64,000 bases of DNA from Bacteroidales bacterium (GTDB lineage Bacteria; Bacteroidota; Bacteroidia; Bacteroidales; UBA12077), in contig JAEINU010000005.1 of assembly GCA_016342685.1 (NCBI GenBank), positions 62,001 to 126,000 of the forward strand. Direction: 5' to 3'. How positions within the stretch are numbered: position 1 is the first letter of the stretch; every line of letters starts with the position of its first letter. Positions 12,577 to 59,300 of this stretch are shown piece by piece. The position numbers were made by a program, and so were the translations under genes. Under the pieces are notes generated by a model. The model worked only from the letters and a program-made list of their open reading frames with translations. It did not search any database and had not been told where the DNA came from.

Positions 12577-13863
12577 TTATTTTGTTAAAGCTTTTACTGG
12601 TTCAATTCCTAAAGTTGTTCCTTCTTGGATTGCTTTTAATACAGCTCCACCTCCTGTAAATATGTAATACTTAGGACTATCTAAGGCAACAATATAAAGT
12701 CCAGGAAGCAATCTTTTTAATTCTTGCATGGTGTCGCCGCCTCCATATAATTTTACTGCTTCAACATTTTCGTCTATTAACTCGTCGAGAGCAATTGTAC
12801 CCTCGTTAAAATGTGGAGTAAACCCCATAACAGCATTTACGAAAATTGTTCGTGCTGTCGAAAATACCTTATGGATTTCATTTTCGTAAAAAGATTCCTT
12901 TGCTACGTCTAAAACATAATTAAGTTTAGTACCGGGTTTTAGTTCATGAATATTATGAACTCTATTTTTACCTTCAAATTTTCCATCGAGCGTATCAGAT
13001 TCAATAATAAATGGCAGCTCAACTAATTTGTCAGGATATTTTTCGCTAAACTCAACAAAGCGTTTTGCGTGCGCTAAATCATCTGGCGAGATTCCTTTTA
13101 TTTCAATGCCATACTTGGCACATAAATATGCATTGTAGATTACGCCTCCTAAAACTAGGTAATCGGCTTTCTTAATTAAAGCATAAAGGGAATCAATTTT
13201 AGTGTCGAATTTTGATCCTGCAACAACTGCAATAAATGGCGATTGTGGACTGTAAATTCGCTCCAGATTTTCTATTTCTTTTTGCATTAGGAATCCTGCG
13301 TATGCCGGAAGGTACTTATTAACTCCAACCGTCGAAGCATGTGCTTGCCACGATCCAAAAGCATCGTTAACATAAATATCTGCGAGACCTGCTAATTGAT
13401 TTGCGAATCGATCCATTTCAGGACCTTCGGACTCTTCGCCCTGAAACCAACGTGTATTTGGCAAATAGATTCCATCAATTTTACCTTCTTTTAATTCTCG
13501 AATAGAATGATTTATTGATGTTTCAATTCCAATATATCCTTTATTTTCGTGAGGATAGAAATCTGGAATCTTCATGTTTATATGAAGTTTGTTGCGTAAA
13601 TATTCAACGATTGGCTCAACAGAAGTATCCTTACTAATTTTAATATCACCAGTTTTTTTATCTTTCGGTCTGCCAACATGCGACATTAAAATAATTTTAC
13701 CGCCCTTTGCATTAATATGATAAAGGGTTCCAATAGTTGCATCTATTCTGTATGGGTCATGAATAATGCCTTTTTTAACAACATTATGATCAACACGAAC
13801 TAATACAACTTTGCCATTTAAATCGGCATCTTGTATAGATGGGATATTATATTTATCGAGCAT
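12577..13863 (-). CDS. Divergent phosphoglycerate kinase paralog
   Basis: A 428-residue PGK-like protein. Family landmarks are present: VRVDHNVVKKG (Asp and Asn of the substrate site), MSHVGRP (His, Arg), PNTRWFQGEES (Arg), AGSKFDTK (Lys), YGGGDT (nucleotide hinge) and FTGGGAVLKAIQEG. In the stretch that normally reads AHRAHAS this protein has SWQAHAS and is one residue shorter, so an Arg that contacts 3-phosphoglycerate in canonical PGK is replaced by Gln. Residues 60-120 also carry insertions. The start is at MLDKYNIPSIQD, preceded by AGGAGGTAAA, a strong Shine-Dalgarno rare in this phylum; the frame extends 11 codons upstream without homology. It may retain altered kinase activity or be regulatory. 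It lies directly downstream of the double-PGK gene. Confidence 0.85.
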   Translation of the reverse strand: MLDKYNIPSIQDADLNGKVVLVRVDHNVVKKGIIHDPYRIDATIGTLYHINAKGGKIILMSHVGRPKDKKTGDIKISKDTSVEPIVEYLRNKLHINMKIPDFYPHENKGYIGIETSINHSIRELKEGKIDGIYLPNTRWFQGEESEGPEMDRFANQLAGLADIYVNDAFGSWQAHASTVGVNKYLPAYAGFLMQKEIENLERIYSPQSPFIAVVAGSKFDTKIDSLYALIKKADYLVLGGVIYNAYLCAKYGIEIKGISPDDLAHAKRFVEFSEKYPDKLVELPFIIESDTLDGKFEGKNRVHNIHELKPGTKLNYVLDVAKESFYENEIHKVFSTARTIFVNAVMGFTPHFNEGTIALDELIDENVEAVKLYGGGDTMQELKRLLPGLYIVALDSPKYYIFTGGGAVLKAIQEGTTLGIEPVKALTK

Positions 13864-13873
13864 TTTACCTCCT
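13864..13873 (-). promoter_or_regulatory. Unusually strong ribosome binding site of the PGK-like gene
   Basis: On the minus strand AGGAGGTAAA abuts the ATG at 13861-13863, with the GGAGG core about five bases ahead. Neighbouring genes lack such a site. It fixes the start of the PGK-like gene 33 bases inside the longest reading frame. Confidence 0.75.
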
Positions 13874-13947
13874 GTTTTAAAAATGAAAGGGTACACAATT
13901 TAACCTAAAATTGTGTTTAAATCAATAAAGTGAAATTCTATTTTGAA

Positions 13948-15141
13948 TTATATATCTTCCTTAATAGCTTTAAGTGCCGGTAATTCTTTGCCTTCTATAT
14001 ATTCTAGTAAAGCGCCACCTGCCGTTGAAATGTAACTTATTTTATAAGCTAAACTATATTTGTTAACTGCAGCAATAGAATCTCCACCGCCAATTAATGA
14101 AAATGCTCCTTTGTCGGTAGCACGGGCAACTGCCATTGCTATTTTCAAGGTTCCCATAGAGAAGTTAGACATTTCGAAAACTCCAATTGGTCCATTCCAA
14201 AGAATGGTTGATGAATTTTCAATAACTTCAGTAAATTCGTTAGCTGATTTTATGCCGATATCTAATCCCATCCATCCATCTTTAATTTTCTGAATGTTAC
14301 AATGTTCAATGTTAGCATCATCTTTAAATTCATCAGCAATTATACAATCAGAAGGTAAGTAAAGGTTGACACCGTTTTCTTTGGCTTTATTAATAATGTT
14401 TCTGGCAACATCAATAAAATCATCTTCAACCAATGAGTTCCCTATTTTACCACCCATAGCTTTCGAGAATGTAAATGCAATTCCTCCAGCAATTATTAAA
14501 TTGTCTACTTTTTCGATTAAAGCTTCAATTATTTGGATTTTTGTAGATACTTTCGAACCACCTAAAATTGCTGTAAAAGGTCTTTTTGCTTGTTTTACAA
14601 CTTTGTCAATATTGTTAACTTCGTTTTCAACTAAATAGCCAAACATTTTATTGTCTGGGAAAAACTTTGCTAAAGTATAAGTTGATGCATGCGCTCTATG
14701 TGCTGTTCCAAAGGCATTGAAAACAAAAGTATCTCCTAATTCGGCTAATTGTTTTGCAAAATTTTCATCGGCATCTGTTTCTTCTTTATGGAAACGAAGA
14801 TTTTCAAGCAATAAACATTCTCCTGCCTTTAAAACCGTTGAGGCAATTAGAGCTTCTTCACCAATACAATCGCTAACATATTTTACTTTATTATCGAGTG
14901 CCTTGTTTAAATATGGGAGTATGTGTTTAACAGAATACTTTTCATCAACTTTTCCTTTAGGTCGGCCCAAGTGCGTTAAAAAAATTACAGAGCCACCTTC
15001 AGCTAATATTTTACGAACAGTTGGAAGAGCCGTAACAATTCTTGTGTCATCCGAAATTTGATAATTTTCATCTAACGGTACATTAAAATCAACGCGCATT
15101 AAAACTTTTTTTCCTTCGAAATTATATCTATCGATTGTAAG
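13948..15141 (-). repeat. Tandem duplication within pgk, C-terminal copy
   Basis: This copy encodes the second PGK unit (residues 398-794) and is a direct repeat of 15142-16332. It is diverged enough at DNA level to be an old duplication. Confidence 0.85.
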
Positions 15142-16332
15142 GTTTTGTTTTATGGCTTTTATACTTGGTAATTCTTTGCCTTCCAAATATTCCAACAATG
15201 CTCCACCAGCTGTTGAGATGTAGCTTATTTTATGTGCCAAACTATATTTGTTAACAGCAGCAATTGAATCGCCTCCACCAATTAAGGAGAATGCTCCTTT
15301 ATCAGTAGATCTTGCAACAGACATTGCAGTCTTTAAGGTTCCCATTGCAAAACTTGGCATTTCAAAAACACCAATTGGTCCATTCCAAAGAATTTTTTTA
15401 GAATTTTCAATAACTTCTGCAAACTTATTAGCTGATTTGATACCGATATCTAAACCCATCCATCCATCAGGAATATCCATAATGCTGCAATGATCTATGT
15501 TAGCATCATTTTTAAATTCATCGGCAATTATACAATCTGTAGGTAAATATAATTTTACTTTGTTTTTTTGTGCTTTATCGATAATATGTCTGGCAAAATC
15601 TAGAAAATCATTTTCAACAAGAGAGTTCCCAATATTGCCACCCATTGCTTTAGCAAAGGTGAATCCAATTCCTCCAGCGATTATTAAATTATCTACTTTT
15701 TCGATTAAAGATTCAATAATTTGAATCTTAGTTGAAACTTTGGAACCTCCAAGAATAGCAGTAAATGGGTGAATTGGTTGATGTAGTATTTTATCAATAT
15801 TATTTATCTCGTTTTCTACGAGGTAACCAAACATACAATTTTTTGGAAAATATTTGGCAATTGTATATGTCGAAGCATGGGCTCTATGAGCAGTTCCAAA
15901 AGCATTATTTACAAAAGCATCTCCTAAATTTGCTAGCTGTTTTGCAAAATTTTCATCGGCATCGATTTCTTCTTTATGAAATCTAAGATTTTCAAGTAAT
16001 AAAATTTCTCCGGGCATTAAATCATCTGCTAATTTTTGAGTTTTATCTCCAATACAATCTGTTGCAAATTTCACTTCGCGATCCAGTAGTTTACTCAAAT
16101 GTGGTTGAATAATTTCCAAAGACATGTTTTTATTATACTTGCCTTTTGGTCGACCTAAGTGTGTTAGTATTATTATTGAGCCACCTTCCGATAAAATTTT
16201 TTGAATTGTAGGTATCGCTGTTATTATTCTTGTATCGTCTGTTATTTCGAGCTTATCATTTAATGGAACATTAAAATCAACTCGCATTAATACCTTTTTA
16301 TTGGAGAAATTATAATTATCAATGGAATACAT
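13948..16332 (-). CDS. pgk: Tandem-fused double phosphoglycerate kinase
   Basis: A 794-residue protein made of two complete PGKs joined end to end (about residues 1-397 and 398-794). PGK transfers phosphate between 1,3-bisphosphoglycerate and ADP in glycolysis. Each half has the full catalytic set: RVDFNVPL, THLGRPKGK, LLENLRFHKEE, NNAFGTAHRAHAS or FNAFGTAHRAHAS, GGSKVSTK, WNGPIGVFEM, GGGDSIAA and STAGGALLEY. The halves are about 70% identical by eye, with the C-terminal lobes the most alike. The joint reads AIKQNLTIDRYNF, where a stop and a new Met would be expected. CAA stands where TAA might have been and CTT where ATG might have been, so a single sequencing error cannot explain it. A normal PGK is about 390-400 residues. 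It heads a leftward pair with the divergent PGK. Confidence 0.93.
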   Translation of the reverse strand: MYSIDNYNFSNKKVLMRVDFNVPLNDKLEITDDTRIITAIPTIQKILSEGGSIIILTHLGRPKGKYNKNMSLEIIQPHLSKLLDREVKFATDCIGDKTQKLADDLMPGEILLLENLRFHKEEIDADENFAKQLANLGDAFVNNAFGTAHRAHASTYTIAKYFPKNCMFGYLVENEINNIDKILHQPIHPFTAILGGSKVSTKIQIIESLIEKVDNLIIAGGIGFTFAKAMGGNIGNSLVENDFLDFARHIIDKAQKNKVKLYLPTDCIIADEFKNDANIDHCSIMDIPDGWMGLDIGIKSANKFAEVIENSKKILWNGPIGVFEMPSFAMGTLKTAMSVARSTDKGAFSLIGGGDSIAAVNKYSLAHKISYISTAGGALLEYLEGKELPSIKAIKQNLTIDRYNFEGKKVLMRVDFNVPLDENYQISDDTRIVTALPTVRKILAEGGSVIFLTHLGRPKGKVDEKYSVKHILPYLNKALDNKVKYVSDCIGEEALIASTVLKAGECLLLENLRFHKEETDADENFAKQLAELGDTFVFNAFGTAHRAHASTYTLAKFFPDNKMFGYLVENEVNNIDKVVKQAKRPFTAILGGSKVSTKIQIIEALIEKVDNLIIAGGIAFTFSKAMGGKIGNSLVEDDFIDVARNIINKAKENGVNLYLPSDCIIADEFKDDANIEHCNIQKIKDGWMGLDIGIKSANEFTEVIENSSTILWNGPIGVFEMSNFSMGTLKIAMAVARATDKGAFSLIGGGDSIAAVNKYSLAYKISYISTAGGALLEYIEGKELPALKAIKEDI
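15142..16332 (-). repeat. Tandem duplication within pgk, N-terminal copy
   Basis: This copy encodes the first PGK unit (residues 1-397), paired in direct orientation with 13948-15141. The copies are most alike in the nucleotide-binding lobe, which may mean stronger constraint or gene conversion there. Confidence 0.85.
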
Positions 16333-16605: not shown

Positions 16606-17733
16606 ATGCAATTTAAAGAAGTCGTTGGTCATCAAGAAATAAAAGAAAAATTAATTTTCACAATTAAGGAAAACCGTGTAAGCCATGCACAGTTATTTTT
16701 AGGGCCGGAAGGTTCTGGGAATTTGGCTTTGGCTATAGCTTATGCACAATATATATCTTGCGAGAATAAATTGGAGAATGATTCGTGTGGTGTGTGCCCA
16801 TCATGTTTGAAATTTAAAAAACTGGTTCATCCAGATTTGCATTTTGTTTTTCCGGTTGCTACATCTAAAACCATTAAAAAAGACCCTGTTAGTGATGATT
16901 ATATTGCTCAATGGAGAGAATCAATACTCGAAAATCCATATTTTAATCAAAATAAATGGTATGAAACGATCGATGTAGAAAATAAACAAGGAATTATAAG
17001 TAAAAATGAAAGTTACGAGATTCTTAAAAAACTAAACCTGAAAACCTTTGAGTCAGAATATAAAATAATGATTATCTGGTTACCGGAAAAAATGAATGCT
17101 TTTGCAGCTAATAAATTACTTAAATTAATTGAAGAGCCACCCGCAAAAACTTTGTTTTTATTGGTTTCAGAAAATTCTGAACAAATGTTGCCTACTATTT
17201 TATCCCGAACACAATTGTTTAAAATACCAAAGGTTGATAAGGTAAGTATGCATACGAATCTGTGCGATAATTTTGGATTGTCTCCCGAAGAAGCTGAGGA
17301 CATAACACATTTAGCAAATGGAAATTATTTTGAGGCGCAGAATTTGATTAATTCAGTAGACGAAGAAAACTTTAATTTTGAACAATTTACCAGTTTAATG
17401 AGATTCTCATATCAACGAAAGGTCTTGGAACTTATTGAGTGGGTTGATGAGATTTCAAGGGTAGGGCGAGAAAAGCAAAAGAACTTTTTAATTTATGCTA
17501 TTCGCTTGGTTCGAGAGAATTTCATGTTAAATCTAAATGAAAAGAAAATAGTTTACCTAACTCAAAAGGAATTTGGTTTCTCGGAAAAATTTTCGCAATT
17601 TATTAATAATGAAAATGTTGTTCAGATTTATGAAGTTTTAAATAAGGCACACGCTGATATTTCTATGAATGCATATAATAAAATAGTATTTTTAGATTTA
17701 GCTTTAAAGATTATTAAATTGATAAAAAAGTAA
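16606..17733 (+). CDS. holB: DNA polymerase III subunit delta'
   Basis: A 375-residue clamp-loader subunit delta' that helps load the sliding clamp at the replication fork. The P-loop region reads GPEGSGNLALA, where the catalytic Lys of Walker A is Asn, as expected for the non-ATPase delta' subunit. A zinc-module cysteine group (CENKLENDSCGVCPSC) follows. The sensor-1 region is LKLIEEPPAKTLFLLVSE, and the SRC-like element is SRTQLFKIP. A C-terminal collar domain completes the length. It is followed at 75 bases by ricT, which has its own promoter box; the two are neighbours in many bacteria, as yaaT and holB are in Bacillus. Confidence 0.92.
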   Translation: MQFKEVVGHQEIKEKLIFTIKENRVSHAQLFLGPEGSGNLALAIAYAQYISCENKLENDSCGVCPSCLKFKKLVHPDLHFVFPVATSKTIKKDPVSDDYIAQWRESILENPYFNQNKWYETIDVENKQGIISKNESYEILKKLNLKTFESEYKIMIIWLPEKMNAFAANKLLKLIEEPPAKTLFLLVSENSEQMLPTILSRTQLFKIPKVDKVSMHTNLCDNFGLSPEEAEDITHLANGNYFEAQNLINSVDEENFNFEQFTSLMRFSYQRKVLELIEWVDEISRVGREKQKNFLIYAIRLVRENFMLNLNEKKIVYLTQKEFGFSEKFSQFINNENVVQIYEVLNKAHADISMNAYNKIVFLDLALKIIKLIKK

Positions 17734-17748: not shown

Positions 17749-17808
17749 CTTTTTGAAACTCTTCTGTCATAAATTGAAAATGACGTGAAAGAGTATAATA
17801 TATATATT

Positions 17809-18990
17809 ATGGATAATACAGATAAAGATATAATTGATCAACAACAAAATACAAATCCCTCTTCATGCAAATGTAATAATACTGAATGCTGTAGTAAGCT
17901 TCAAACTTTTGATTGGTTAGGAGATTTACCTGCCTCAATGCAAAAGGCTGACATTGTTGAAGTAAGATTTAAGAATACACGAAAAGAATTCTTCATAAAC
18001 GCAAATGGCTTGCGATTAAATAAAGGAGATTTGGTTGCTGTTGAAGCTTCTCCAGGACACGATATTGGAATTGTTTCCTTAACCGGTGAAATTGTAAAAT
18101 TTCAGTTGCGTAAACATCATGTTTCACCTGATAAACAGGAGTTTAAGAAGGTTTATCGAAAAGCAAAAGCAGCCGATCTTGAAAAGTGGTACGAGGCTAC
18201 CTCGCTTGAAGATAATACTATGCTTGAAACTCGGAAAATAGCTTCAGAGTTAAAATTAGAAATGAAAATTGGTGATGTTGAGTATCAGGGTGATAGAACA
18301 AAAGCTATATTTTATTATATTGCCGATGAACGGGTTGATTTTCGAGAGTTAATTAAGATACTTGCCGAAAAATTCAAGATTCGTATTGAAATGCGTCAAA
18401 TTGGAGCTCGTCAGGAAGCGGGACGAATAGGAGGAATTGGTTCGTGCGGACGAGAGTTGTGTTGTTCTACCTGGATAACAAATTTTGTATCCGTAACAAC
18501 AAATTCGGCTCGTTATCAGGAAATATCCTTGAACCCACAGAAACTTGCCGGTCAGTGCGGGAAGTTGAAATGTTGTTTAAACTACGAACTAGACTGTTAC
18601 GTTGATGCGCAAAAAGACTTCCCTTCAAAAGATACCGTGTTGGAAACAGCTATGGGGCAGGCTCATCATGCTAAAACAGACATTTTTAGAGGAATTTTAT
18701 GGTATACATTCGATCCAATAAATATGGTGAATTTTATTCCTGTACATGTCGAGCGTGTTAATGAAATAATTGCTTTAAATAAAAAAGGTAAAAAAGCTGA
18801 CGAACTAGTTGATTTAGAGGTTTTAAAAGAGGATGTGCCATTGGATTTCCAAAATGTGGTTGGAGAGGACTCATTGACTCGTTTCGATGATCAAAAGAAG
18901 AAAAAGAAGAAGAAACCAAACAGGAATTATAAAAAACGCAATAAGAATCGAAATGAAAATCGAAATGAAAATCGACCAGATAAGAAATAG
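17809..18990 (+). CDS. ricT: PSP1/RicT (YaaT) family protein
   Basis: A 393-residue PSP1 C-terminal-domain protein. In Bacillus, RicT (YaaT) partners with RicA and RicF in an Fe-S complex that governs RNA maturation by RNase Y; the role in Bacteroidota is not settled. The conserved cysteine-rich core is visible: GSCGRELCCSTW, then QCGKLKCCLNYELDCY. The N-terminus adds another cysteine pair region (SCKCNNTECCSKL), and the C-terminus is a very basic Lys/Arg/Asn tail. The frame can begin eight codons earlier at a GTG (17785), but the ATG at 17809 is preferred. Its tail overlaps the start of gldH by 26 bases, implying coupled translation. Confidence 0.9.
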   Translation: MDNTDKDIIDQQQNTNPSSCKCNNTECCSKLQTFDWLGDLPASMQKADIVEVRFKNTRKEFFINANGLRLNKGDLVAVEASPGHDIGIVSLTGEIVKFQLRKHHVSPDKQEFKKVYRKAKAADLEKWYEATSLEDNTMLETRKIASELKLEMKIGDVEYQGDRTKAIFYYIADERVDFRELIKILAEKFKIRIEMRQIGARQEAGRIGGIGSCGRELCCSTWITNFVSVTTNSARYQEISLNPQKLAGQCGKLKCCLNYELDCYVDAQKDFPSKDTVLETAMGQAHHAKTDIFRGILWYTFDPINMVNFIPVHVERVNEIIALNKKGKKADELVDLEVLKEDVPLDFQNVVGEDSLTRFDDQKKKKKKKPNRNYKKRNKNRNENRNENRPDKK

Positions 18991-19447
18991 TTTAGTTTTT
19001 TTATTTCTTCTTTTATTAGTTTGGTCATGCGATCCAAATCAAATCTTTGAAAAAAATTATCAATTGCCTAATAATTCATGGGACAAGGATTCTTCAGTAA
19101 CTATAAACGTTGATATTAAAGATACAATAAGTCCCCATAACATCTATATAAACGTAAGGAATACATCAAGATACGAAATGCAAAACTTGTTTCTTTTTGT
19201 AAATGCAACTTCACCAAACGGGATGGTATTAAAAGATACATTTGAGTGTCATTTAGCCGATTCACGGGGAAAATGGACAGGTAATGGGTGGGGTGATATT
19301 TATGACAATCAGTTTATTTACAAACAGAATGTAAGATTTCCTATTTCAGGAACATATAAATTCGAATATATTCAGGCTATGCGAACCGACAAGTTAAAGT
19401 TCATATCAGATATTGGACTACGTATAGAAAAAGTAGAATTTCGTTAA
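18965..19447 (+). CDS. gldH: Gliding motility lipoprotein GldH
   Basis: A 160-residue lipoprotein recognised as GldH, one of the Gld lipoproteins needed for gliding and chitin use in Flavobacterium and conserved more widely in Bacteroidota. The signal ends in LLVWSC, with the lipidated Cys at residue 21, followed by CDPNQIFEKNYQLPNNSWDK. The rest is beta-rich, with family patterns YINVRNTSRYEMQNLFLF and GWGDIYDNQF. The frame extends 26 codons upstream within ricT, but the basic extension is out-of-frame ricT tail. The ATG at 18965 gives a proper signal peptide. The biochemical role of GldH is unknown. Order ricT-gldH-trmB looks like an operon. Confidence 0.87.
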   Translation: MKIDQIRNSLVFLFLLLLVWSCDPNQIFEKNYQLPNNSWDKDSSVTINVDIKDTISPHNIYINVRNTSRYEMQNLFLFVNATSPNGMVLKDTFECHLADSRGKWTGNGWGDIYDNQFIYKQNVRFPISGTYKFEYIQAMRTDKLKFISDIGLRIEKVEFR

Positions 19448-24988: not shown

Positions 24989-25101
24989 ATAATAATCTTA
25001 AATCGTATTGGAACAGTGTTTGGTGCTCTGAACCATACTGTATTTTATGGTATAAGAATCATACTACTTTATTTATACAATAACAATAAAAATTATTGCA
25101 A

Positions 25102-26655
25102 GTGAAAAAGCTAAGGATATTATGGACAGACGACGAGATTGACTTGCTAAGACCTCATATATTGTTTCTTGAAGAAAAAGGATTTGAAGTTTTAACAGCC
25201 AGTAACGGCGATGATGCAATAGAAATTGTAATTGCAGAGGATTTAGACTTAATCTTTTTAGATGAGAATATGCCAGGATTAAGTGGTTTACAAACCTTAT
25301 CGATTATTAAGGAAAAAAAGCCAAACATTCCTGTTGTAATGATTACTAAAAGCGAAGAAGAAGATATAATGGACCAGGCAATTGGTTCTAAAATCGCGGA
25401 CTATTTAATAAAACCAGTAAATCCAAAACAAATACTTCTTAGCATAAAAAAGAATGTTGATAACAAAAGACTAATATCAGAAAAAACCGTTTCGGGTTAT
25501 CAATCAAATTTTGGTAAAATTGGTATGCAAATATCAGATGCAAATACTTTTGATGATTGGGCTGAATTGTATAAAAGGCTTGTATATTGGGAACTAGAGT
25601 TGGAGCAGAATCCAGATTCTGGAATGCAAGAAGTATTCCATATGCAAAAATCTGATGCGAATAATGGATTTGCAAAATTTATTAAGAAGAATTACGAGTC
25701 GTGGTTTTCTGGAGAAAAAGAGATGCCATTAATGTCTCCACATCTTTTTAAGGAGAAAATTTTTCCAGAGCTTGATAAAGGACAGAAGGTTTTTGTAATT
25801 GTAATAGATAATTTTAGGTATGATCAATGGAAACTAATCCAACCGCTTATTAGTGATTATTTTACAGTTGAGTCGGAGCAGCTTTATAGTAGTATTTTGC
25901 CAACGGCAACACAATATGCGAGGAATGCAATTTTTGCGGGTTTAATGCCTTATGAAATTGATAAAATGTATCCTCAATATTGGCTGAACGACGAAGAAGA
26001 AGGCGGGAAAAATATGAAGGAAGCTGAATTGTTTGAAACTCAGCTTAAAAGACTTAGTAAGAATTACAAATTTGGCTACGAGAAAATAACTCAGTTAAAG
26101 GCAGGAGAAAAAGTTGTTGAGAATATCAACGATCTGCTAAATAATCAGCTTAATTTATTGGTATACAATTATATTGATATGCTTTCGCATGCACGAACAG
26201 ATATTGAAATGATTCGTGAACTTGCAAACGACGAACCTGCATACAGGTCCTTAACTATATCTTGGTTTAAACATTCGCCTCTTTTTGCCTTAATAAAAGA
26301 ACTCAAAGATCGGGATGTTAAGCTTTTTATTACAACCGATCATGGAACTGTAAGAGTTCAAAATCCTGTAAAAGTTGTTGGAGATAAAAACACATCCACA
26401 AATTTGAGATATAAGAATGGTAGAAACCTGAATTACAATCCAAAAGAAGTGTTCGAAATAAGAGATCCTCATAAGGTACATTTACCAAAATCTAATATAA
26501 GTACGAGCTATATTTTTGCTACAAATGATGATTTTTTGGCTTATCCCAATAATTATAATTATTATGTAAATTATTATAGAAACACATTCCAACACGGAGG
26601 TGTTTCAATGGAAGAAATGATAATACCTTTCATCAAATTAAAACCAAATAAATAA
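25102..26655 (+). CDS. porX: T9SS response regulator PorX (receiver-PglZ)
   Basis: A response regulator of about 517 residues in which a CheY-like receiver is joined to a PglZ/alkaline-phosphatase-fold effector. PorX works with the kinase PorY and a sigma factor to control T9SS gene expression. The receiver (1-120) keeps Asp10-Asp11, the phospho-site Asp54 (IFLDENMPG), Thr82 and Lys104 (LIKPVNP). The PglZ domain shows FVIVIDNFRYDQW, PTATQYARNAIFAGLMP, NYIDMLSHARTD, LFITTDHGTVRV and FQHGGVSMEEMIIP, a complete set of metal-site segments. The start could be TTG at 25096 or GTG at 25102; I favour the GTG, giving MKKLRILWTDDE. No PorY is adjacent. tsaE follows after 22 bases. Confidence 0.93.
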   Translation: MKKLRILWTDDEIDLLRPHILFLEEKGFEVLTASNGDDAIEIVIAEDLDLIFLDENMPGLSGLQTLSIIKEKKPNIPVVMITKSEEEDIMDQAIGSKIADYLIKPVNPKQILLSIKKNVDNKRLISEKTVSGYQSNFGKIGMQISDANTFDDWAELYKRLVYWELELEQNPDSGMQEVFHMQKSDANNGFAKFIKKNYESWFSGEKEMPLMSPHLFKEKIFPELDKGQKVFVIVIDNFRYDQWKLIQPLISDYFTVESEQLYSSILPTATQYARNAIFAGLMPYEIDKMYPQYWLNDEEEGGKNMKEAELFETQLKRLSKNYKFGYEKITQLKAGEKVVENINDLLNNQLNLLVYNYIDMLSHARTDIEMIRELANDEPAYRSLTISWFKHSPLFALIKELKDRDVKLFITTDHGTVRVQNPVKVVGDKNTSTNLRYKNGRNLNYNPKEVFEIRDPHKVHLPKSNISTSYIFATNDDFLAYPNNYNYYVNYYRNTFQHGGVSMEEMIIPFIKLKPNK

Positions 26656-28413: not shown

Positions 28414-31400
28414 TTAGAAGAAAGCCCTTAACTGCATATTTCCGGTATGTATAACAGAAGTTTTTTCCGAAACACGACCATTGTATACGATATTTAATTC
28501 TAGGTTTTTCGCTAATTTTCGTTGAAATCTTAAACTCCAAGTTCCATTATTTCCGGGCTTTAAACCTTCTAGCATTTCATACGCGATAGAAGAGTTTTGA
28601 TCCGAATTGTAATCGATAATTAAGAAGTTTCCTTGCAAAATAATACTTCCTTTTTTAGTAGCCGAATAATTAATCTCAGCGCCAAAATCATGTATTAAAG
28701 ACCTTTCTGTTGATAAGGCATTTTCTTTATCTTTGCTTTTATAATCAAGTTTAATTCTTGTTTGAAAACCAGGTTGGTATAAGATTGCTATTTCGTTAAA
28801 CACATTATTGATGCTATAATTTTTTGTGCTAAAAAATTCCGATTCATAATTCTTTTCTCCAATTTCTACACTGTATTTTAATGTAAAATCAGAATGAAAT
28901 TTCCATCTGCTTATTAATATGTTTGATACAACACTTCTGTAATCTATGCCATTTGATAATAGTAATTTGCTAATGTTGTTTTCATATATGTAATCGACTC
29001 CAATTTTAGAGTTTGTTTTATTAAACGAAAAGGTGTTTCTAATATTCTGGTTTAAATTTATTATTGAGCTATCGGCTGCTTTATAAAAGGGATTAAAGCT
29101 ATTAAGATCGTCGTTCGTTGTTTTCTGATTAATTGCATAAGCCAAATTGTTAGAAAATCGAGACGTAAACTTCCTAATTCCGCTCTTTGATTTCCATATA
29201 GAGTATGGATTAACATTCAATGCTTGGCTAAATTCACTTTTGTTTATTTTGATATATTCGTTTCCAGGAGTATAAATTCTTATGTAATTAGCTTGATCCT
29301 GAAATTGGGCATTCTCAAATTCGTCTAATTCTGCAATTCCATTATTGTTGTAATCAGACCACGAATATACACCTTGCCCGCTAGTGACTTTTAAGTATGA
29401 AAATTCACGTTTTGGTTCAAGTCCCGATCCAGCCTCATAAAAACTCGAAGAAGTAATTGTACCTTTAAATAATTTGAAAGTATAATTTAATCTGCCGGTA
29501 AGAGAGTTTTCTTCGTTTTCTTGAATAATAGTTGTGTCTTTAATATTTAATTTTCTATAGTTTACAACTGCTTTTAAAATACTCGATGGATTTTTTTGTA
29601 AACCAAACCCTATGTTAAAATCCTCTGCTTGTGAGGTCTTATTAAGTTTGTTTTTCGAAACTAAATAATCGTCCCTTAAGGTGTAGCTTGCTGAAAAAGT
29701 GTTGACTGTTGAGTCGGAATTTTCGATATAGGCACGATAAGAGTTGAACTTAAAAGAGTTTAACTGAAGACTGTCGCTCGTGTTATTTATTAATTGATTT
29801 TTTTCCAATTCATTCTCAAATCCTAATCTAAATGTTTTAAAGGATTTGTTAAGATTTATTAAATATCTTATAAATTGAGTGTTATCAATATTTGATTCGG
29901 TACTTAATAAACTTGTGTTAATTATTAGCTCATATCCTTGTTTTTTAAATGAGTTATTAAAGATGTTTTTATAACCAGTATAATCGGAGCTGCTTTTTAA
30001 AAAATCAAAACCATATTGGGATCTAATAGTTCTCTTATATCTATAATTTAATTCTATTTGGCCGAAGTGTTCGTCTGATATAAAGGGAGATTGTATATTC
30101 CAATCTCGTTCAAATTCAATAGACCTGAACCGTTCTATTGCCTCGAAATCTTTGTTAATTAATTGATAAGCTAGTTTTGTTTTTAAAGAATTTTTTAGAG
30201 TATCCGATTTTAATATAGCATTATTTAATTCAACTTTAAGAGCATAGCCGGTATTATCTGAGGCATCTTTATCCGAGAAAGTATTTATATCATAATTACT
30301 TAGAGCTATTTCAAAATATGTTTTTGTAGATTCATTTACATTGATCTCTCCCCCTAGGCTGACCATTTGCTGTTTTTTAGGCGAAATAAGTAATCGAACA
30401 GGCTCGTAATTTCCTTGAGGGATATTATTTATTGGGGCAATCCACTCATAAACTTTTCCATTCGCCGAATTCTGAATTTGAATATAATTACCCTTGTTAT
30501 CTCCAGTTAAACTAAACCCTATTTGATAATAAGCCTTTTCGGGATTTGTTGAATATTTGTATATAGTGTAAGTGCCAGAACTTATAGTTGTGTCTGTCTT
30601 CTCATATAAAACATAATCCGTCTGGAATTCAACACTGTCTACATTCGGAGTTAAAGCATTGTTTATATTGTCTCCTAATTCAGAAAGAAGTTGTTTTTGA
30701 TCTTCAGATAAATCCTGATTTACAGGTTGATTTTTGCTGTCTTGCTCAGAGTAAATATTTAACCAAATGCGACCTTTTTTTGTCTTAATTTCATTTGTGT
30801 TGTAAATAAAAAAACGAGAGTAACTTTTCTCAGAGTATTCAAATTCAATTGATATACGCGAGTCTTTCGTAATAGGTTTATTTGCAGTAAAAGTTACCTC
30901 ACCAGTATTGTAATTAATTGTGTAATCATTCTCTTTTCCTCTAATTAATGATTTTCCGTTAATGTAAATTTTTTCGGAGCCCGAAAGAATAATAATAAAT
31001 TGTTCGTTTTCACATCCTGTTAATTTATAAGGACCTTGATTTCCCTCTTGTCCCTGAAAAGTTTTACGGCAATATTTCCCTTTTGAGATTGCTCCACTAA
31101 TTGTTGTTTCAAGCTTTGTGCTTTTTTTACTTGAGATATGTGTATTAAGATTTAGTAAGGCTCCTTGCCCTTTCTTATTTACATTCATATAATAACCTAC
31201 AGGTTTGTAAATTTCAAAATCACCAGCTATTAATTTGGTGTTTTCATTGTATAGTTGAATAAATACCTTGTCAAAATCCTGAATTTGTTGGGAATTTCCT
31301 TCTGGTTGAATAGGAATATTTTCGTCAGATATTGCTGCAAGAATACTTACGTTATTGTTAAGTTTTCCAGAAATTTGCAAATTGAGATTAGAGCTAATAG

Positions 31401-31860
31401 TTGCATCTTGATTGTTTCCAATTGTTATTCCTCTTGATATGCTTCCACTTTTATCCAATAAATTATCGTTAAGAAAGTTATTGGCAGAATTTATTTTTGT
31501 TCTGTTTGGATAAGCTAAAATAGGTCCAGAAATAATTGTTTCTTCTGTTTTTCGATTGTACAATCTTTGCGAAAAGTTAATAGGAAAAACCCGATAACTA
31601 ATTTTTAGATTGTTGGTTAGCTTTAATAATGAGTCTGTTATTGTAATTTCAGATGTTGAATAGTTTATTTTGTAAAAGGAATTAGATATCAAATTGTTAT
31701 TGCTAAATACGAACTCTGAACCAGGAATAATTGAAAGTGAATCTATCTGGAAATTTCTAGATAAAGGGGTAATAGTCTTACTTCGAAGATTGCTTAAGTT
31801 CTGCGACCTTCCAGAGAGAGCAATAATTAAAAACAATATGAGCAGTAATCTTTTTCGCAA
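28414..31860 (-). CDS. Large outer-membrane beta-barrel protein, SprA-like
   Basis: An 1148-residue secreted protein whose function I do not recognise. The signal peptide ends near residue 19 (LSGRSQ-NLSNL). The remainder is rich in alternating beta patterns and ends in LRAFF, as outer-membrane barrels do. Two features resemble SprA elsewhere in this window: an early block (SISRGITIGNNQDATISSNL) and a beta unit of the form DYTINYNTGEVTF, matched in SprA by YTVDYNLGRVKI. Near residue 850 a DYNNNGIAELDEFE loop looks like a calcium-binding EF loop. The pair Cys264/Cys280 could form a disulfide. The start codon is TTG. It may be a smaller SprA-family translocon or surface protein. It has no linked partner. 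Confidence 0.7.
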   Translation of the reverse strand: MRKRLLLILFLIIALSGRSQNLSNLRSKTITPLSRNFQIDSLSIIPGSEFVFSNNNLISNSFYKINYSTSEITITDSLLKLTNNLKISYRVFPINFSQRLYNRKTEETIISGPILAYPNRTKINSANNFLNDNLLDKSGSISRGITIGNNQDATISSNLNLQISGKLNNNVSILAAISDENIPIQPEGNSQQIQDFDKVFIQLYNENTKLIAGDFEIYKPVGYYMNVNKKGQGALLNLNTHISSKKSTKLETTISGAISKGKYCRKTFQGQEGNQGPYKLTGCENEQFIIILSGSEKIYINGKSLIRGKENDYTINYNTGEVTFTANKPITKDSRISIEFEYSEKSYSRFFIYNTNEIKTKKGRIWLNIYSEQDSKNQPVNQDLSEDQKQLLSELGDNINNALTPNVDSVEFQTDYVLYEKTDTTISSGTYTIYKYSTNPEKAYYQIGFSLTGDNKGNYIQIQNSANGKVYEWIAPINNIPQGNYEPVRLLISPKKQQMVSLGGEINVNESTKTYFEIALSNYDINTFSDKDASDNTGYALKVELNNAILKSDTLKNSLKTKLAYQLINKDFEAIERFRSIEFERDWNIQSPFISDEHFGQIELNYRYKRTIRSQYGFDFLKSSSDYTGYKNIFNNSFKKQGYELIINTSLLSTESNIDNTQFIRYLINLNKSFKTFRLGFENELEKNQLINNTSDSLQLNSFKFNSYRAYIENSDSTVNTFSASYTLRDDYLVSKNKLNKTSQAEDFNIGFGLQKNPSSILKAVVNYRKLNIKDTTIIQENEENSLTGRLNYTFKLFKGTITSSSFYEAGSGLEPKREFSYLKVTSGQGVYSWSDYNNNGIAELDEFENAQFQDQANYIRIYTPGNEYIKINKSEFSQALNVNPYSIWKSKSGIRKFTSRFSNNLAYAINQKTTNDDLNSFNPFYKAADSSIINLNQNIRNTFSFNKTNSKIGVDYIYENNISKLLLSNGIDYRSVVSNILISRWKFHSDFTLKYSVEIGEKNYESEFFSTKNYSINNVFNEIAILYQPGFQTRIKLDYKSKDKENALSTERSLIHDFGAEINYSATKKGSIILQGNFLIIDYNSDQNSSIAYEMLEGLKPGNNGTWSLRFQRKLAKNLELNIVYNGRVSEKTSVIHTGNMQLRAFF

Positions 31861-53336: not shown

Positions 53337-56300
53337 CTATTCTGATAAAGTAAATCTTAAGCTAAAGCCAACATCGGTATTTGATATACGATAAGGACTT
53401 GTACCTACCAAAGGATCGGTAATATTCTGATCATAAAATAATCTAAGAGTTAAACGATTGCTTAATAAATAATCCATTGAAACACCAATTATTGTTGCTC
53501 GTTGATCAGCCGAAGGAATTTCTACATTTTCTTCAATTCTTCTTAAGATTGTTTTAGTATCACGAATCTTTACATTGGCACGTATATTCAGATCGCTTTT
53601 AAAATCTGTTTCTCCATCTCCAAAATTAAAGAGGTATTCAAAGTCATCAAATCGATAGCCTATACTAAAGCCAAGTTCATCGCTGTATATTTCAGTAATT
53701 TGGTTGTTTGAATAGCTTAATGTGATACTTCTGCTTTTCTTCATTTCAAATCGAGTGGTTAGGTTATTAACCCAAGTCATATCGACATTAATTAAAGGGC
53801 TAAAACGCTCATCAATTGTAATGCTATTTGCTTCGTTGTAAGGTATGAAATTTCCCAAATCGTCAACAGCATAGCTAAAACCACCAGAGCTAATTTCATA
53901 ATCAGAATTATTAATAAACGAGCCAATATTATAAGTTGACCTGTAAGAGTGACTAATGTTAAATGATTTAAAAAATCGTTTAATTAATGGAATTTCTTTC
54001 AAACGATCAAATCGAATACTCCAGTTAGGTAAAGGTATTTTCTGAAACAAGTCTAGTGGAACAGAGTTTTGATCGTAAATACCATACGCCGCCAAAAATG
54101 ATGGTGTCATAACTTGTTGTGAGGTTTCACCATAGCCGTCAGTATACCCATTTTTAACATCGTTAGAATATCCGTGAGCGCCACCTTCGTATCTTTTGTC
54201 GCCAAGTCTTTGAGATATATCTGAACGATATTGTTTAAAATTTTCGTAAGCTTCAGAATAATAGTTATTATCTTGAGAAAGACCTTCAAATGCAGATCCA
54301 ATCGTAATATACGACATAGAGAAATTACCCGATCTATATTCACTATAGGCCTCATTTCCGTATATAACAGGAAGGTAATATGTATTTACATTTTCAGAAT
54401 ATGTTCTGTTTGCAGTTAAATCAATTTTTAAACCTTTAATTGGTTCTAAAGTAACCCTTAAGTTTAAGTTTTGGTTACTTGTCATAATATATGGAGTGTT
54501 TAACGAAGAGTCGTTTGTTATCCAATTATAATCGATTGCATTTGTTGCAAAATCTTCATCTTGCCAACCTAAAACAAATGGCCAGCCTGGAGCATTCCGA
54601 CTAGGCATGTTATTCCCCCCATATGATTCCATACCGAGAATATTTGTTTTTGGTTTATATCCTGCAAGACTTGAACCTTCGGTTAAGGTGTAAGAAGCTG
54701 ATACGTTTTTAACGGACATTAATAACAATGCAGTATTTTCACCTATAAACACCAATGGATTTTCTCGTCTTTCGATTTCTCCTGTAACAGTAATTTGCGC
54801 ATCATCAGAGGTCGTTTCGGGTTTAAATTTTAGTTTCTTTTTGGTAACAACTTCCCATTCTCCTTTAATATCTTTTCCCTTACTGTCAACTACTTTTACC
54901 GAAGTGATATTTTCTGTATTTAGGTTATGAAAAATTGATTTTGATCTATTTTCCCTAAGTTTTATCTGTGCTTGTTGAAAAGTAACCGTTTCTTTTTTCT
55001 TTCTACTCTTTGCAGGTTTAGAATATTTTCGATCTATCTTCTTAAGAAATCCAACCTTATTGTATAGGTTTTTCATATTGGCTTGCGCATTTGCCTGAAC
55101 TGTTGTTGAGTTTCTTACGGTGTTTCCAAGTAATGAATTTCCGTACTCATCAAGAGGGCCTGCTTGCCAGTTATAGGTAGTATTATATGTAGTATTTAAG
55201 CTTGTCCAATCTAATAATGGTAATTTATTGATGGGCACTCTATAAGTAACTTTAATGTTGTGGTTGTATTGAGTATTTCTTCCAAAACTTCGAATGTTTG
55301 TCCAAACAGAATCTTTCCATCTTTCATAGGAATCTTTGTGTCTGTCAACTTCTCCAAATGGTTCATCTATCCTCGCAATATTTGTAGCCGAGAAATCGAC
55401 TTTTAGTGAACGAGCCAGATCCCATTTTACATCGTAGTATCTATTCCAGTTGAATTCTTTATTATAGCTTGGTTCAATAATATTTTCAGGACTGTAAATG
55501 TTTCGAATTTTATTTGCTTGGTATTTACGATAAACGTCCGTTCTAAACGAAACGCTTGAAGGCATATAATAAAAGTTAAAATCTTTAATTAAAGAAAATG
55601 CCTTTTTGCGCATTATTCCTTGTGCCTTTTTAAATGGAGTAACAACTTTAGGTTTGGTGTTATAGATATAATTAAAAGCCCCACGGTAATTCTTTAAAAC
55701 ATCGTATTCTGTATTTACATTTCGTGCAAATAATTCATTGTAAGAATAGCTTACCGAGAAGTTTGAAATATCATAAACTCTAGGTTTTTTACTTATCTTA
55801 TTCACTTTTACATTTGTAAAGTTGATGCTTTTTCTTCGGGTGTAATCTTGAGCAATTTCTTTTATAGAATCTCTTTCTGCTTTCGAATTGGCTTCGTCTA
55901 GGGCAACTTCCAATGGGATATCAGGGTCTAAAGGATTGTATTCAGGGTTTATGAAAGACTCAGAATATCCAACATACATTGGAATGCTTACTTTGGATTT
56001 CTCAGAGAAAAATTTACCAAGCTCAAGATTTGCAGATACATCGTATTCAATAACTTCTTCTTTACTTCTTTCATTTACTTTTTTCTCAATACTCCCAAAT
56101 CCAGGTGTACTTATACTACCTGAAAGATTAACTGTACCAAAGTCGGCAAGTCTGGTCGACATTCTACCACGAGCAGCCCAACCTCCGTCTTCTTTAAAAT
56201 CGGATAAACGTAATTCGTTAACCCAAATTTCTCCGTATTTATTCATTCCATCATCGTTGGATGAGGAACTGTTTTGTTTACTTGGATTACGAACACCAAT

Positions 56301-59300
56301 CATAATGGTAACAACGTTGCTTAAATTTGGGTTACCACGAACAGATATTCGTTCGTTATTTTCTTTATAAACAGAGTAAATAGAATTGTATGTTATCACA
56401 GAATTTGGAACCTGAAGTTCTTTATTTCGTGCTAGCTTAACGTCTAATAAATCTTTTAATATAATTTCAACATTATTTTCAGTAGGCCAAACAACATCGT
56501 CAATAATAGACCCGAGTTGACTCACTTTAAGAGGGATTTCATATTCGTAATAATTATCTTTATAATCTGTTCCCAAACGAATAAATACTCTTAAGTCATC
56601 ATCTCGTAAGATTTTGTCTTCTAATTCATTCGCATGAACATACATTTTAAGCTTTTTGTACTGCCTTAAATCTAAATTAATTGTTTTATATGCTGCACGA
56701 GCATCGCCATCTTCAAGATCTTTTACTTTAAGAACCATAGATTGCTCATTTAACTGTCGTAGTTGTGGGTTGGTTGGGTCAATTACTCGATCAACACCTG
56801 GAGGGAGAACATAATTGTCATTCTCTTCAATATTAACTGATGATATATCTAATGTTCCATTTGAATATTCAGGAGTAGCTAAATTTTCCTGACCTTCTAT
56901 AAGTGAAAGTTCATATTTACGCCATTCTCCTCTTACCAATTCCAACTTAGCAAACCTTAACAACATGGAATCTTCAAAATCTTTAAGAAACATTCTCATG
57001 AATCGGATAGATTTAAAATCTTGAATAGCTCCTATAACCTCATCTGGTTCTCTTATTGGAATTCTGAACTGATACCATTTTATATCGACATTATTTTGTC
57101 CATTTGGAAGATCAACATTATTACCTTTTACCATATCAACAATATAGTTCTGGCCAACTTCCATTTTTTCTGGAGCAAGTTCTACTTTATATTGAAAATA
57201 GCTTTCTGTTTCGTTTAAAGTTTTATCGCCATTAATATCTTCAGTGTCAGGTGATCTTGTATAAGCTTTTTCACCTGAGTTACCTTGTGTTCCATTGTAT
57301 CTCTTATAACGATCTAATATGCTCAATTGTTGGCTGTCATAATCTCCTCCGGTAAAATAATGGTAATTATCGTTGGATGGATCTAGCTTAATTTCTTCAA
57401 GTACATCTATTGAAACCGCATCTTCTAAATCATTAATATAGTTGCTAAAATAGGTCTCCTCATCTTTATCATTCAAACCATCAAGACCAACATCTTGCAA
57501 CGGGATGTTATTAAATGATTCTACGGTATAGTTGTTACTAGGTACTCGTCCCCACTGTGTTGTATCTACGTTCTCAATAACTTCTGTGTTTGGTAATCCA
57601 TCCTCGAATGCAATACGAGAGTCTTGTAAGATATCTTCGGAAATACTACCAAGGTTAAAATATAGGTTACCTTTACTTGCTTCCGCAGGATTTTCAGCGT
57701 ATACATATGGATCCATCAACCAAAATTCGATGTAATTTACGTTGGCGGCTTCAAAATCAGGATTTGGTGTTTCTCTCATAATACCAGCCCATCTTGATCC
57801 CGGATCTGCTAAAGTACCATCAGAATTTAATCCTTTGGATATTCCGGGCTCTTCCTTTGTATCATAGTTATATGCTCCTCTTTCTTTTGGATAATAAGCA
57901 ACATTTAAAACTTGCAGTGCTGTTGGAACGTTTGTTTCAGATTCTTTATTTGGAAATATCTCTTTTTCGTAAATTTCTCTAACAAAGTGATTCGATTGCT
58001 CTTCATCGTTGTTTTTAATATGACCCGGAGTTAAAGAGTTGTTTCTTAAAAACAATGGATCGATTTTATACCAAGCAATCTTTGCTCTATTATAACCGGC
58101 TCTAATATCACCCGCAAGCATTGCTTCTGGAAATATTTCACTCTGACCATAAGGGGTACTGGCAAGTATCCATGAGAAATTACTTTTTAAATCCATGGAT
58201 GTTTCACTACCTTCAAAATCATCGATATATGCATTCCCTTCTTCTTCAATTGCACTTGAGTGTCCTGGGATTAAATGTGCAAATTCAGCATCGATTAAGA
58301 TAGAGGATTTCTCTTTTGTTTCAATTAAAGGTATCTTGTCAACAAGTGAAGTAATGAATTGAGATTCGGTTTGATATGATGTGTTTAATCCCCAAATAGT
58401 GTTCGAAATAGGTTCTTCGCCAATGGAAACTTTCTGGGTTAATGGTCTTTCAGTAAGGTTCATTATTGTACCACCAACATTAAAATTTTCGGAGAATTGG
58501 TAATTTAAATGAGTTCCTAATAAGGTTTTTGTCTGAATGCTATAGAGTGCATTACTTTCGAGTGAAATCTGCAAAGGGGTTCCTGATTCTAATAATCCAT
58601 TGTCTATAATCTTTACTCTACCAAGGTTGTAATCGACTGTATATTCAACATTTTCTGTTAATTGTCGACCTCCAGCCATAACTTTTACCGATCCTTGCGG
58701 AATATTTATTGCATTCAGTGGTATTTCTGAACTAATATCAGATCGATATTCACCTTTCAATTTAAATTTATTCTTTTCGGCAACTAATCTTGCATAAGTT
58801 AATGTTGTGTCGTATAATTCCTCAAAAACATAATCATCAGCAAGGTTGTCATCACCAAACTGTTCTCTTAAATAACTTCCGAATGGTTCAAGAACGGGGA
58901 ATATGATTCTTCCATTAGAAGCATTCACTGTAACTCCATCAATAAAGTCGAAACGACCATCAGCACCAGCGTCAAGTTGGGAGTTTAGATTGTCAAGGTT
59001 AAGAACCTTTAGTAATATCTTTTTATTAATTGAGCCTTCGGGAATATAATTTAAGGCATTTCCTGTTTTGTCGTCTTGATATAAAACGTTTAATATAAAA
59101 TCCTGATTGTTAACTTGGTATGCTCCAATTGCATAAACGTTTTTCATCATTAAATCCCAAGTAGGAATGCTTGGTGTTAGGTTTGTTCCTTTTAAAAGTT
59201 TAGCAATCAATAATTCTTCTGAAGCAATTCCGTCTGTTGAAAAATCACCCACTTTAAAAGTCTGACCACCAATATTATATTCAAATGCAACAGCAAGAAT

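Follow-up and report, generated by a model that had tools for sequence, protein, structure and literature searches.

A two-unit phosphoglycerate kinase shared by several families of Bacteroidales

Gene and protein architecture

A double phosphoglycerate kinase (PGK) is a genuine enzyme architecture that is common to several Bacteroidales families; PGK is a textbook single-unit enzyme. In the window, by which we mean the whole 64,000-nucleotide stretch of Bacteroidales DNA that was analysed, the double is a protein of 794 aa, encoded by a minus-strand open reading frame (13948..16332) that starts with ATG and ends with TAA. The Pfam PGK model (PF00162) scores 994.9 bits on the protein against a cut-off of 27 and matches it in two stretches, the best of which spans the whole profile. 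The N-terminal half comprises residues 1-396 (15145..16332, minus strand; Pfam match at residues 4-386) and the C-terminal half, a second full PGK match, residues 397-794 (13951..15144, minus strand), and in the genome search each covers profile positions 1-379 of 379. Full-length profile matches and the substrate and nucleotide residues in both halves place the protein in PF00162, but with two units it is not a PGK of one ~400-residue unit. The original prediction of two complete PGKs in one 794-residue frame is therefore upheld by the reading frame, the Pfam match and the full-profile coverage of both halves.

The halves meet at SIKAIKQ-NLTIDRYNF (joint AIKQ-NLTID, 15130..15159, minus strand), where a stop codon and a Met are both absent, as had been claimed, and where there is no spacer either; the same register and spacer-free joint occur in all 30 doubles found. 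The two halves align without internal gaps and share 298 of 396 residues (75.3%), so that the high identity estimated by eye stands, while the figure given for it, about 70%, was too low. At the DNA level the identity of the halves is 74.9%, with 55% at third codon positions. The genome of the window (4.77 Mb, completeness 100) has PGK matches to the two halves and to a divergent neighbour, PGK3, and no canonical PGK besides the double was found in it by the Pfam profile search.

An AlphaFold2 model built with 13 doubles and ten singles predicts two PGK-like halves (mean pLDDT 87.0, pTM 0.54), and its best Foldseek match is the PGK 1php, with a TM-score by target of 0.92. In the model, the helix that ends the first half (389-398) runs across the joint, and the placement of the halves relative to each other is not reliable at this pTM. 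An earlier model based on 13 close sequences was of poor quality (pLDDT 62.5) and was set aside.

Taxonomic distribution

The two-PGK frame was identified in at least 30 distinct genomes, 19 of them in the genus of the window and at least 11 in at least five other Bacteroidales families. The search of relatives for long PGKs, proposed originally as a check, found frames of 790-841 aa throughout the genus, in 19 of its 20 genomes including that of the window (25-genome family search). The exception, G012 (78% complete), shows the divergent PGK alone, as do four of the five genomes of the sister genus, the fifth of which (57% complete) has no match. The double, first seen in one genome, is thus real but not peculiar to it, and its recurrence in relatives supports the earlier view that it is not a sequencing slip.

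The order was searched in two ways. With the Pfam model, 198 genomes were covered; those outside the family that had at least two matches, 24 in number, were all re-searched, as was G206, and this gave doubles in G033, G057, G077, G106, G170, G180, G184 and G209, besides G000 and G006. With the protein as query, 393 genomes were covered, and the matches listed, best first, include at least 16 genomes with a double, five in the genus and at least 11 outside it. Among these listed matches, doubles were assigned to families f10 (G033, G247), f34 (G057, G170), f48 (G180), f54 (G077, G184, G406) and f83 (G106, G209, G297); those of G023, G033, G180 and G247 run off the contig end. A fragment of the double clade at a contig end in G346 (f54) is compatible with either a single or a double PGK.

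No further double appeared among the matches listed in a phylum sample of 296 genomes, where the best match after the genome of the window scores 526 bits and the frames are of single length; complete doubles score at least 1201 bits in the 393-genome search, and very divergent doubles could lie below the matches listed. A pattern scan returned twelve named records with the double (L063-L074), all metagenome assemblies labelled Bacteroidales, Bacteroidetes or, once, Marinilabiliales; several match numbered genomes exactly, and they were not added to the count of 30. Coverage of other phyla consisted of this one scan of contigs with patterns derived from the double (28 loci) and the 14 control genomes of the family searches.

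Evolutionary origin of the double

In a 104-row tree of 35 halves and 69 singles, every half falls on one side of one branch with support of 100, and none of the 69 single rows lies within. This tree represents the genus by 7 of its 19 genomes, omits the 132-residue C half of G033 and holds at least one single gene twice owing to overlapping loci. A careful tree with eight singles likewise recovers the 35 halves as one clade (100/100), so that the tree of the two halves, suggested with the original prediction, has been built and contains no single inside the clade.

It is probable that the double arose from one old tandem duplication and fusion, with both sites active and partial homogenisation by gene conversion. 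In an ancestor of several Bacteroidales families, a canonical pgk gene would have been duplicated in tandem and joined in one frame without a spacer, and both halves would have stayed complete PGKs, two linked beads per chain, each converting 1,3-bisphosphoglycerate and ADP to 3-phosphoglycerate and ATP and back. The units are in register at a spacing of ~1188 bp, which would allow gene conversion or recombination to re-equalise them occasionally. We infer a single fusion event, and conversion appears to be the general homogeniser of the halves.

The possibility that the families each doubled their own PGK, which would explain why halves tend to group by family, deserves the most serious consideration among the alternatives, though we regard it as unlikely. 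The N and C halves of f34 are mutual nearest neighbours, and likewise those of f48. When N/C labels were swapped by family (12 columns trimmed at each end), the true labels ranked 10/32, 1/32, 7/32 and 5/128, first in only one of the four representative sets. Repeated fusions would, however, have to account for a joint and a unit length (about 396 aa) that are identical across families, and none of the 69 single rows is an unfused member of the clade, the contig-end fragment of G346 being ambiguous. The N and C halves of f1 and f83 each form their own groups, with the backbone of the clade left open. Within f54, three genera have C halves that form one group (95/80), which the N half of G077 adjoins (95/91), and a further group (88/93) unites the N halves of G406 and G184; these groupings argue against separate fusions and ask for a shared fusion plus conversion in this family. 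An N/C signal is common to f34, f83 and f54: the shared sites of f34b and f54b are orthologous in 17 cases, homogenised in 13 and crossed in 3, those of f83b and f54c in 16, 11 and 4, respectively, and f34 and f54c share 14 orthologous vs 4 crossed sites. The signal in several f54 pairs stands above the crossed sites, which are of the chance type, and supports a shared fusion with incomplete homogenisation. An AU test with all N halves held as one clade gave p 0.0755, which does not reject that topology, so the halves may instead be old and unconverted.

In the genome of the window the N and C halves are 75% identical, and each half is 63-71% identical to its counterpart in other families, a range that leaves aside a 132-residue fragment at 59.8%. 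Within-protein similarity exceeds the same-half similarity across families in the genus of the window; it is not the higher of the two in G184, G406, G297 and G247. An excess of this kind indicates that the halves were homogenised since the fusion or that there were several fusions, and their divergence consequently does not date the fusion. The claim of an old duplication holds in that the fusion predates the genus, but the divergence of the halves, on which it had been based, gives no date. Shared sites within the genus are orthologous (21) rather than homogenised (4) or crossed (0), and those between the double of the window and f83 number 2, 17 and 3, respectively; cross-family sites mostly have N equal to C in each protein, except in several f54 pairs, where orthologous sites are as numerous or more so, and within-genus sites have N equal to N and C equal to C.

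The clearest trace of exchange is in G077, where the halves share an exact run of 50 nt that was equalled in 0 of 200 codon shuffles (28 genomes tested). The best stretch there has 113 of 120 bases identical, and third positions agree at 36 of 44 codons in the tract vs 190 of 353 elsewhere, which is consistent with a conversion-like tract. The longest exact runs were matched by 2/200 shuffles in G106, 4/200 in G209, 2/200 in G247 and 7/200 in G010, and by at least 11/200 in the other 23 genomes; the genome of the window, whose 26-nt run was matched by 52/200, has no significant conversion tract. In G016, G057, G106, G209 and G297 the best 120-nt stretch was likewise seldom matched (0 or 1 of 200 shuffles), but in these five genomes it covers conserved active-site motifs, and selection may explain it. 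The shuffle results are uncorrected for multiplicity, and their null ignores the clustering of conserved sites.

For comparison with the organismal history, rpoB was searched in 30 genomes and gave 27 usable rows (G150, G180 and G071 were dropped). Of the seven genomes that carry a single PGK and PGK3, six sit in a distinct clade of ten rows (100/100), and the double-bearing families form a loose group with a weak backbone, not one clean clade, among which lies the single-PGK genome G038 (f15). Holding the 11 doubles together with G001, G276 and G346 as one clade gave p-AU 0.0254. Judged from these trees, the history of the double must include loss, replacement or transfer.

PGK3 and genomic context

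Directly downstream of the double gene, on the same strand, lies a divergent third PGK (PGK3, 12577..13896, minus strand; Pfam 280.1 bits) with altered active-site motifs, which is 439 aa long from a GTG start or 428 aa from an ATG at residue 12. The original prediction was silent on this neighbour and on the clade-specific substitutions described below. Among the 19 genomes of the genus that carry the double, 11 have a PGK3 match that starts downstream, at most 500 bp beyond the second half; the match is 2.2-4.8 kb off in three, on another contig in three and not found in two. Outside the family, PGK3 is present in six of the eight doubles searched with the Pfam model and not seen in G180 and G184, a tally that leaves out G247, G297 and G406. 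In three aligned sequences PGK3 retains most catalytic residues, but W and Q replace the H-R of GTAHRAH, and no residue aligns with the Glu of NGPMGVFE. PGK3 is the sole PGK found in four of the five sister-genus genomes and, by best E-value, in 8 of 198 genomes of the order; as the sister genus shows no other PGK, PGK3 is probably an active enzyme.

Upstream of the double, the gene at 16606-17733 is divergent from it (plus strand) and encodes a DNA polymerase III delta-subunit domain (Pfam). A scan with a Bacteroidetes-type promoter pattern found no match just before the double gene on the minus strand (9 matches in the window vs 5.97 expected). Gliding and type IX secretion genes are scattered across the window: a 2443-aa protein with an SprA_N domain (53337-60668, minus strand), a response regulator with a PglZ domain (25096-26655, plus strand), which we take to be PorX-like, and a GldH lipoprotein (18887-19447, plus strand). 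The gldH frame is overlapped by about 100 bases by a PSP1-domain frame (17785-18990, plus strand), and its true start is probably later than the listed 18887. A 1148-aa frame (28414-31860, minus strand) has no convincing Pfam match (best E 0.0056, under the cut-off).

Functional residues and selection

The residues that bind substrate and nucleotide in PGK (human numbering D24, N26, R39, H63, R66, R123, R171, K216, K220, N337, E344, D375, T/S376) correspond to D19, N21, R35, H58, R61, R117, R150, K198, K202, N317, E324, D355 and S356 in the N half and to D415, N417, R431, H454, R457, R513, R546, K594, K598, N713, E720, D751 and S752 in the C half, all invariant in 13 doubles. When 30 N halves and 30 C halves were aligned with 69 single rows, the catalytic columns proved to be conserved in both halves, apart from isolated exceptions: a single Ser replaces the H63 equivalent among the N halves, and the D295 column has an E and a G. 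In the protein of the window the catalytic residues are present in both halves, as originally claimed. Both halves are under purifying selection, as had been proposed: dN/dS between genomes is 0.02-0.09 for both in the pairs computed, where dS is mostly high, and 0.127 between the N and C halves of the protein in the window. By these residues, both halves are presumably enzymatically active. The simplest guess at the advantage of doubling is dosage or the stability of a covalent pair.

Three positions set the halves apart from the singles, whose 69 rows are sampled loci, mostly best-scoring, and a subset of the singles in the 393 genomes. At position 222 all 59 halves have Ile or Leu and all 69 singles Met; at position 375, in the STGGGA loop, 58 of 59 halves have Ala and all 69 singles Gly; and Asp143, invariant in the singles, is mostly Asn in the halves (46 of 58). 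Position 222 aligns with Leu221 of 1php, two residues from Tyr223, which makes a water-mediated adenine contact (PMC7729029); as 1php has Leu there, a residue other than Met is not unique to the double clade. A speculative reading, to which we give little weight, is that the pair, Ile222/Ala375 and the frequent company of PGK3 mark a functionally distinct two-site PGK with a division of labour in lower glycolysis. If that were true, the division would concern nucleotide use, direction or regulation, and conversion would maintain the likeness of the two units, both sites being required.

Other PGK arrangements were met in the order. In f82 (G105, G208 and G296; also L075, a water-buffalo rumen assembly), an intact PGK is preceded in one protein by a degenerate piece that corresponds to the C-terminal part of a PGK; the protein is 638 aa long in L110 (1459-3375, minus strand), and L109, L134 and L075 have the arrangement too. 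The first, degenerate unit has VDGDDT in place of the GGGDS of PGK, and its placement is untrusted as its branch is very long (6.5). The intact unit groups with the doubles (98, quick tree) and, in L110, has Ile and Ala at the diagnostic sites (GGGI, STAGGA) but retains VND; the protein may descend from a double whose first unit was reduced by half. Separate genes also occur in tandem: G163 (f27) has two adjacent canonical PGK genes, one with an insertion (L099:6-2745, plus strand), and G351 (f64) has a canonical PGK and a PGK3 gene separated by 3 bp (L136:1456-3960, minus strand), likely a two-PGK operon. The G351 locus was rejected as a double with an internal stop, and the 659-aa frame of G206 (L096) was rejected as a fusion, having a single PGK at its end.

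The f82 protein implies that one unit can turn non-catalytic, which would suit a split of roles, with catalysis in one half and, in the other, regulation or an adaptation to the reverse (gluconeogenic) reaction. Such a split is quite improbable for the doubles, as the catalytic residues are in both halves and a comparison of the 30 N with the 30 C halves gave no column fixed for different residues (at least 80% on each side). An error of assembly or sequencing, or the loss of a stop codon in a single strain, finds no support other than that many of the genomes are draft assemblies, and is refuted to near certainty by the same frame in at least 30 genomes of at least six families.

Relation to known PGKs and implications

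Each half of the double resembles a canonical single PGK (PF00162; 1php of Bacillus stearothermophilus, 1vpe of Thermotoga maritima) in being a full PGK with catalytic residues, but the chain has two units, with Ile/Leu222 and Ala375 where singles have Met and Gly. According to passages of a 2020 review (PMC7729029), known forms include monomers, archaeal dimers and tetramers, PGK-TIM and kinetoplastid multidomain proteins, and a double PGK is absent from those passages. As described there, the Thermotoga PGK-TIM (NF010569/PRK13962) likewise has a PGK inside a longer covalent chain, whereas the second unit of the double is another PGK. Archaeal homodimers also pair two PGK units, but as separate chains. 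Kinetoplastid PGKs are duplicated too, in tandem gene arrays, and have multidomain forms such as PAS-PGK, but these are separate genes or fusions to other domains. Gene conversion between T. brucei PGK genes is the subject of a title cited in PMC1855330. A search of the openly readable literature, with subscription papers and database annotations outside its scope, found no PGK-PGK protein, in line with the earlier statement that a tandem PGK of this kind was not known to have been described in bacteria.

The double scores 1003.3 bits against NF010569 (cut-off 883) in two stretches, the best of which covers profile positions 5-394 of 645, the PGK part. It was rejected as a PGK-TIM, as Pfam finds no TIM match and the best NF010569 stretch lies within the PGK part. 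Since the cut-off is passed without a TIM domain, an automatic name may be wrong, and doubles could be hidden under the name PGK-TIM.

A lineage in which a covalent pair is the sole canonical PGK offers a natural test of how a hinge-bending enzyme is affected when two near-identical active sites are linked. The double PGK is also a candidate for concerted evolution within a single bacterial protein.
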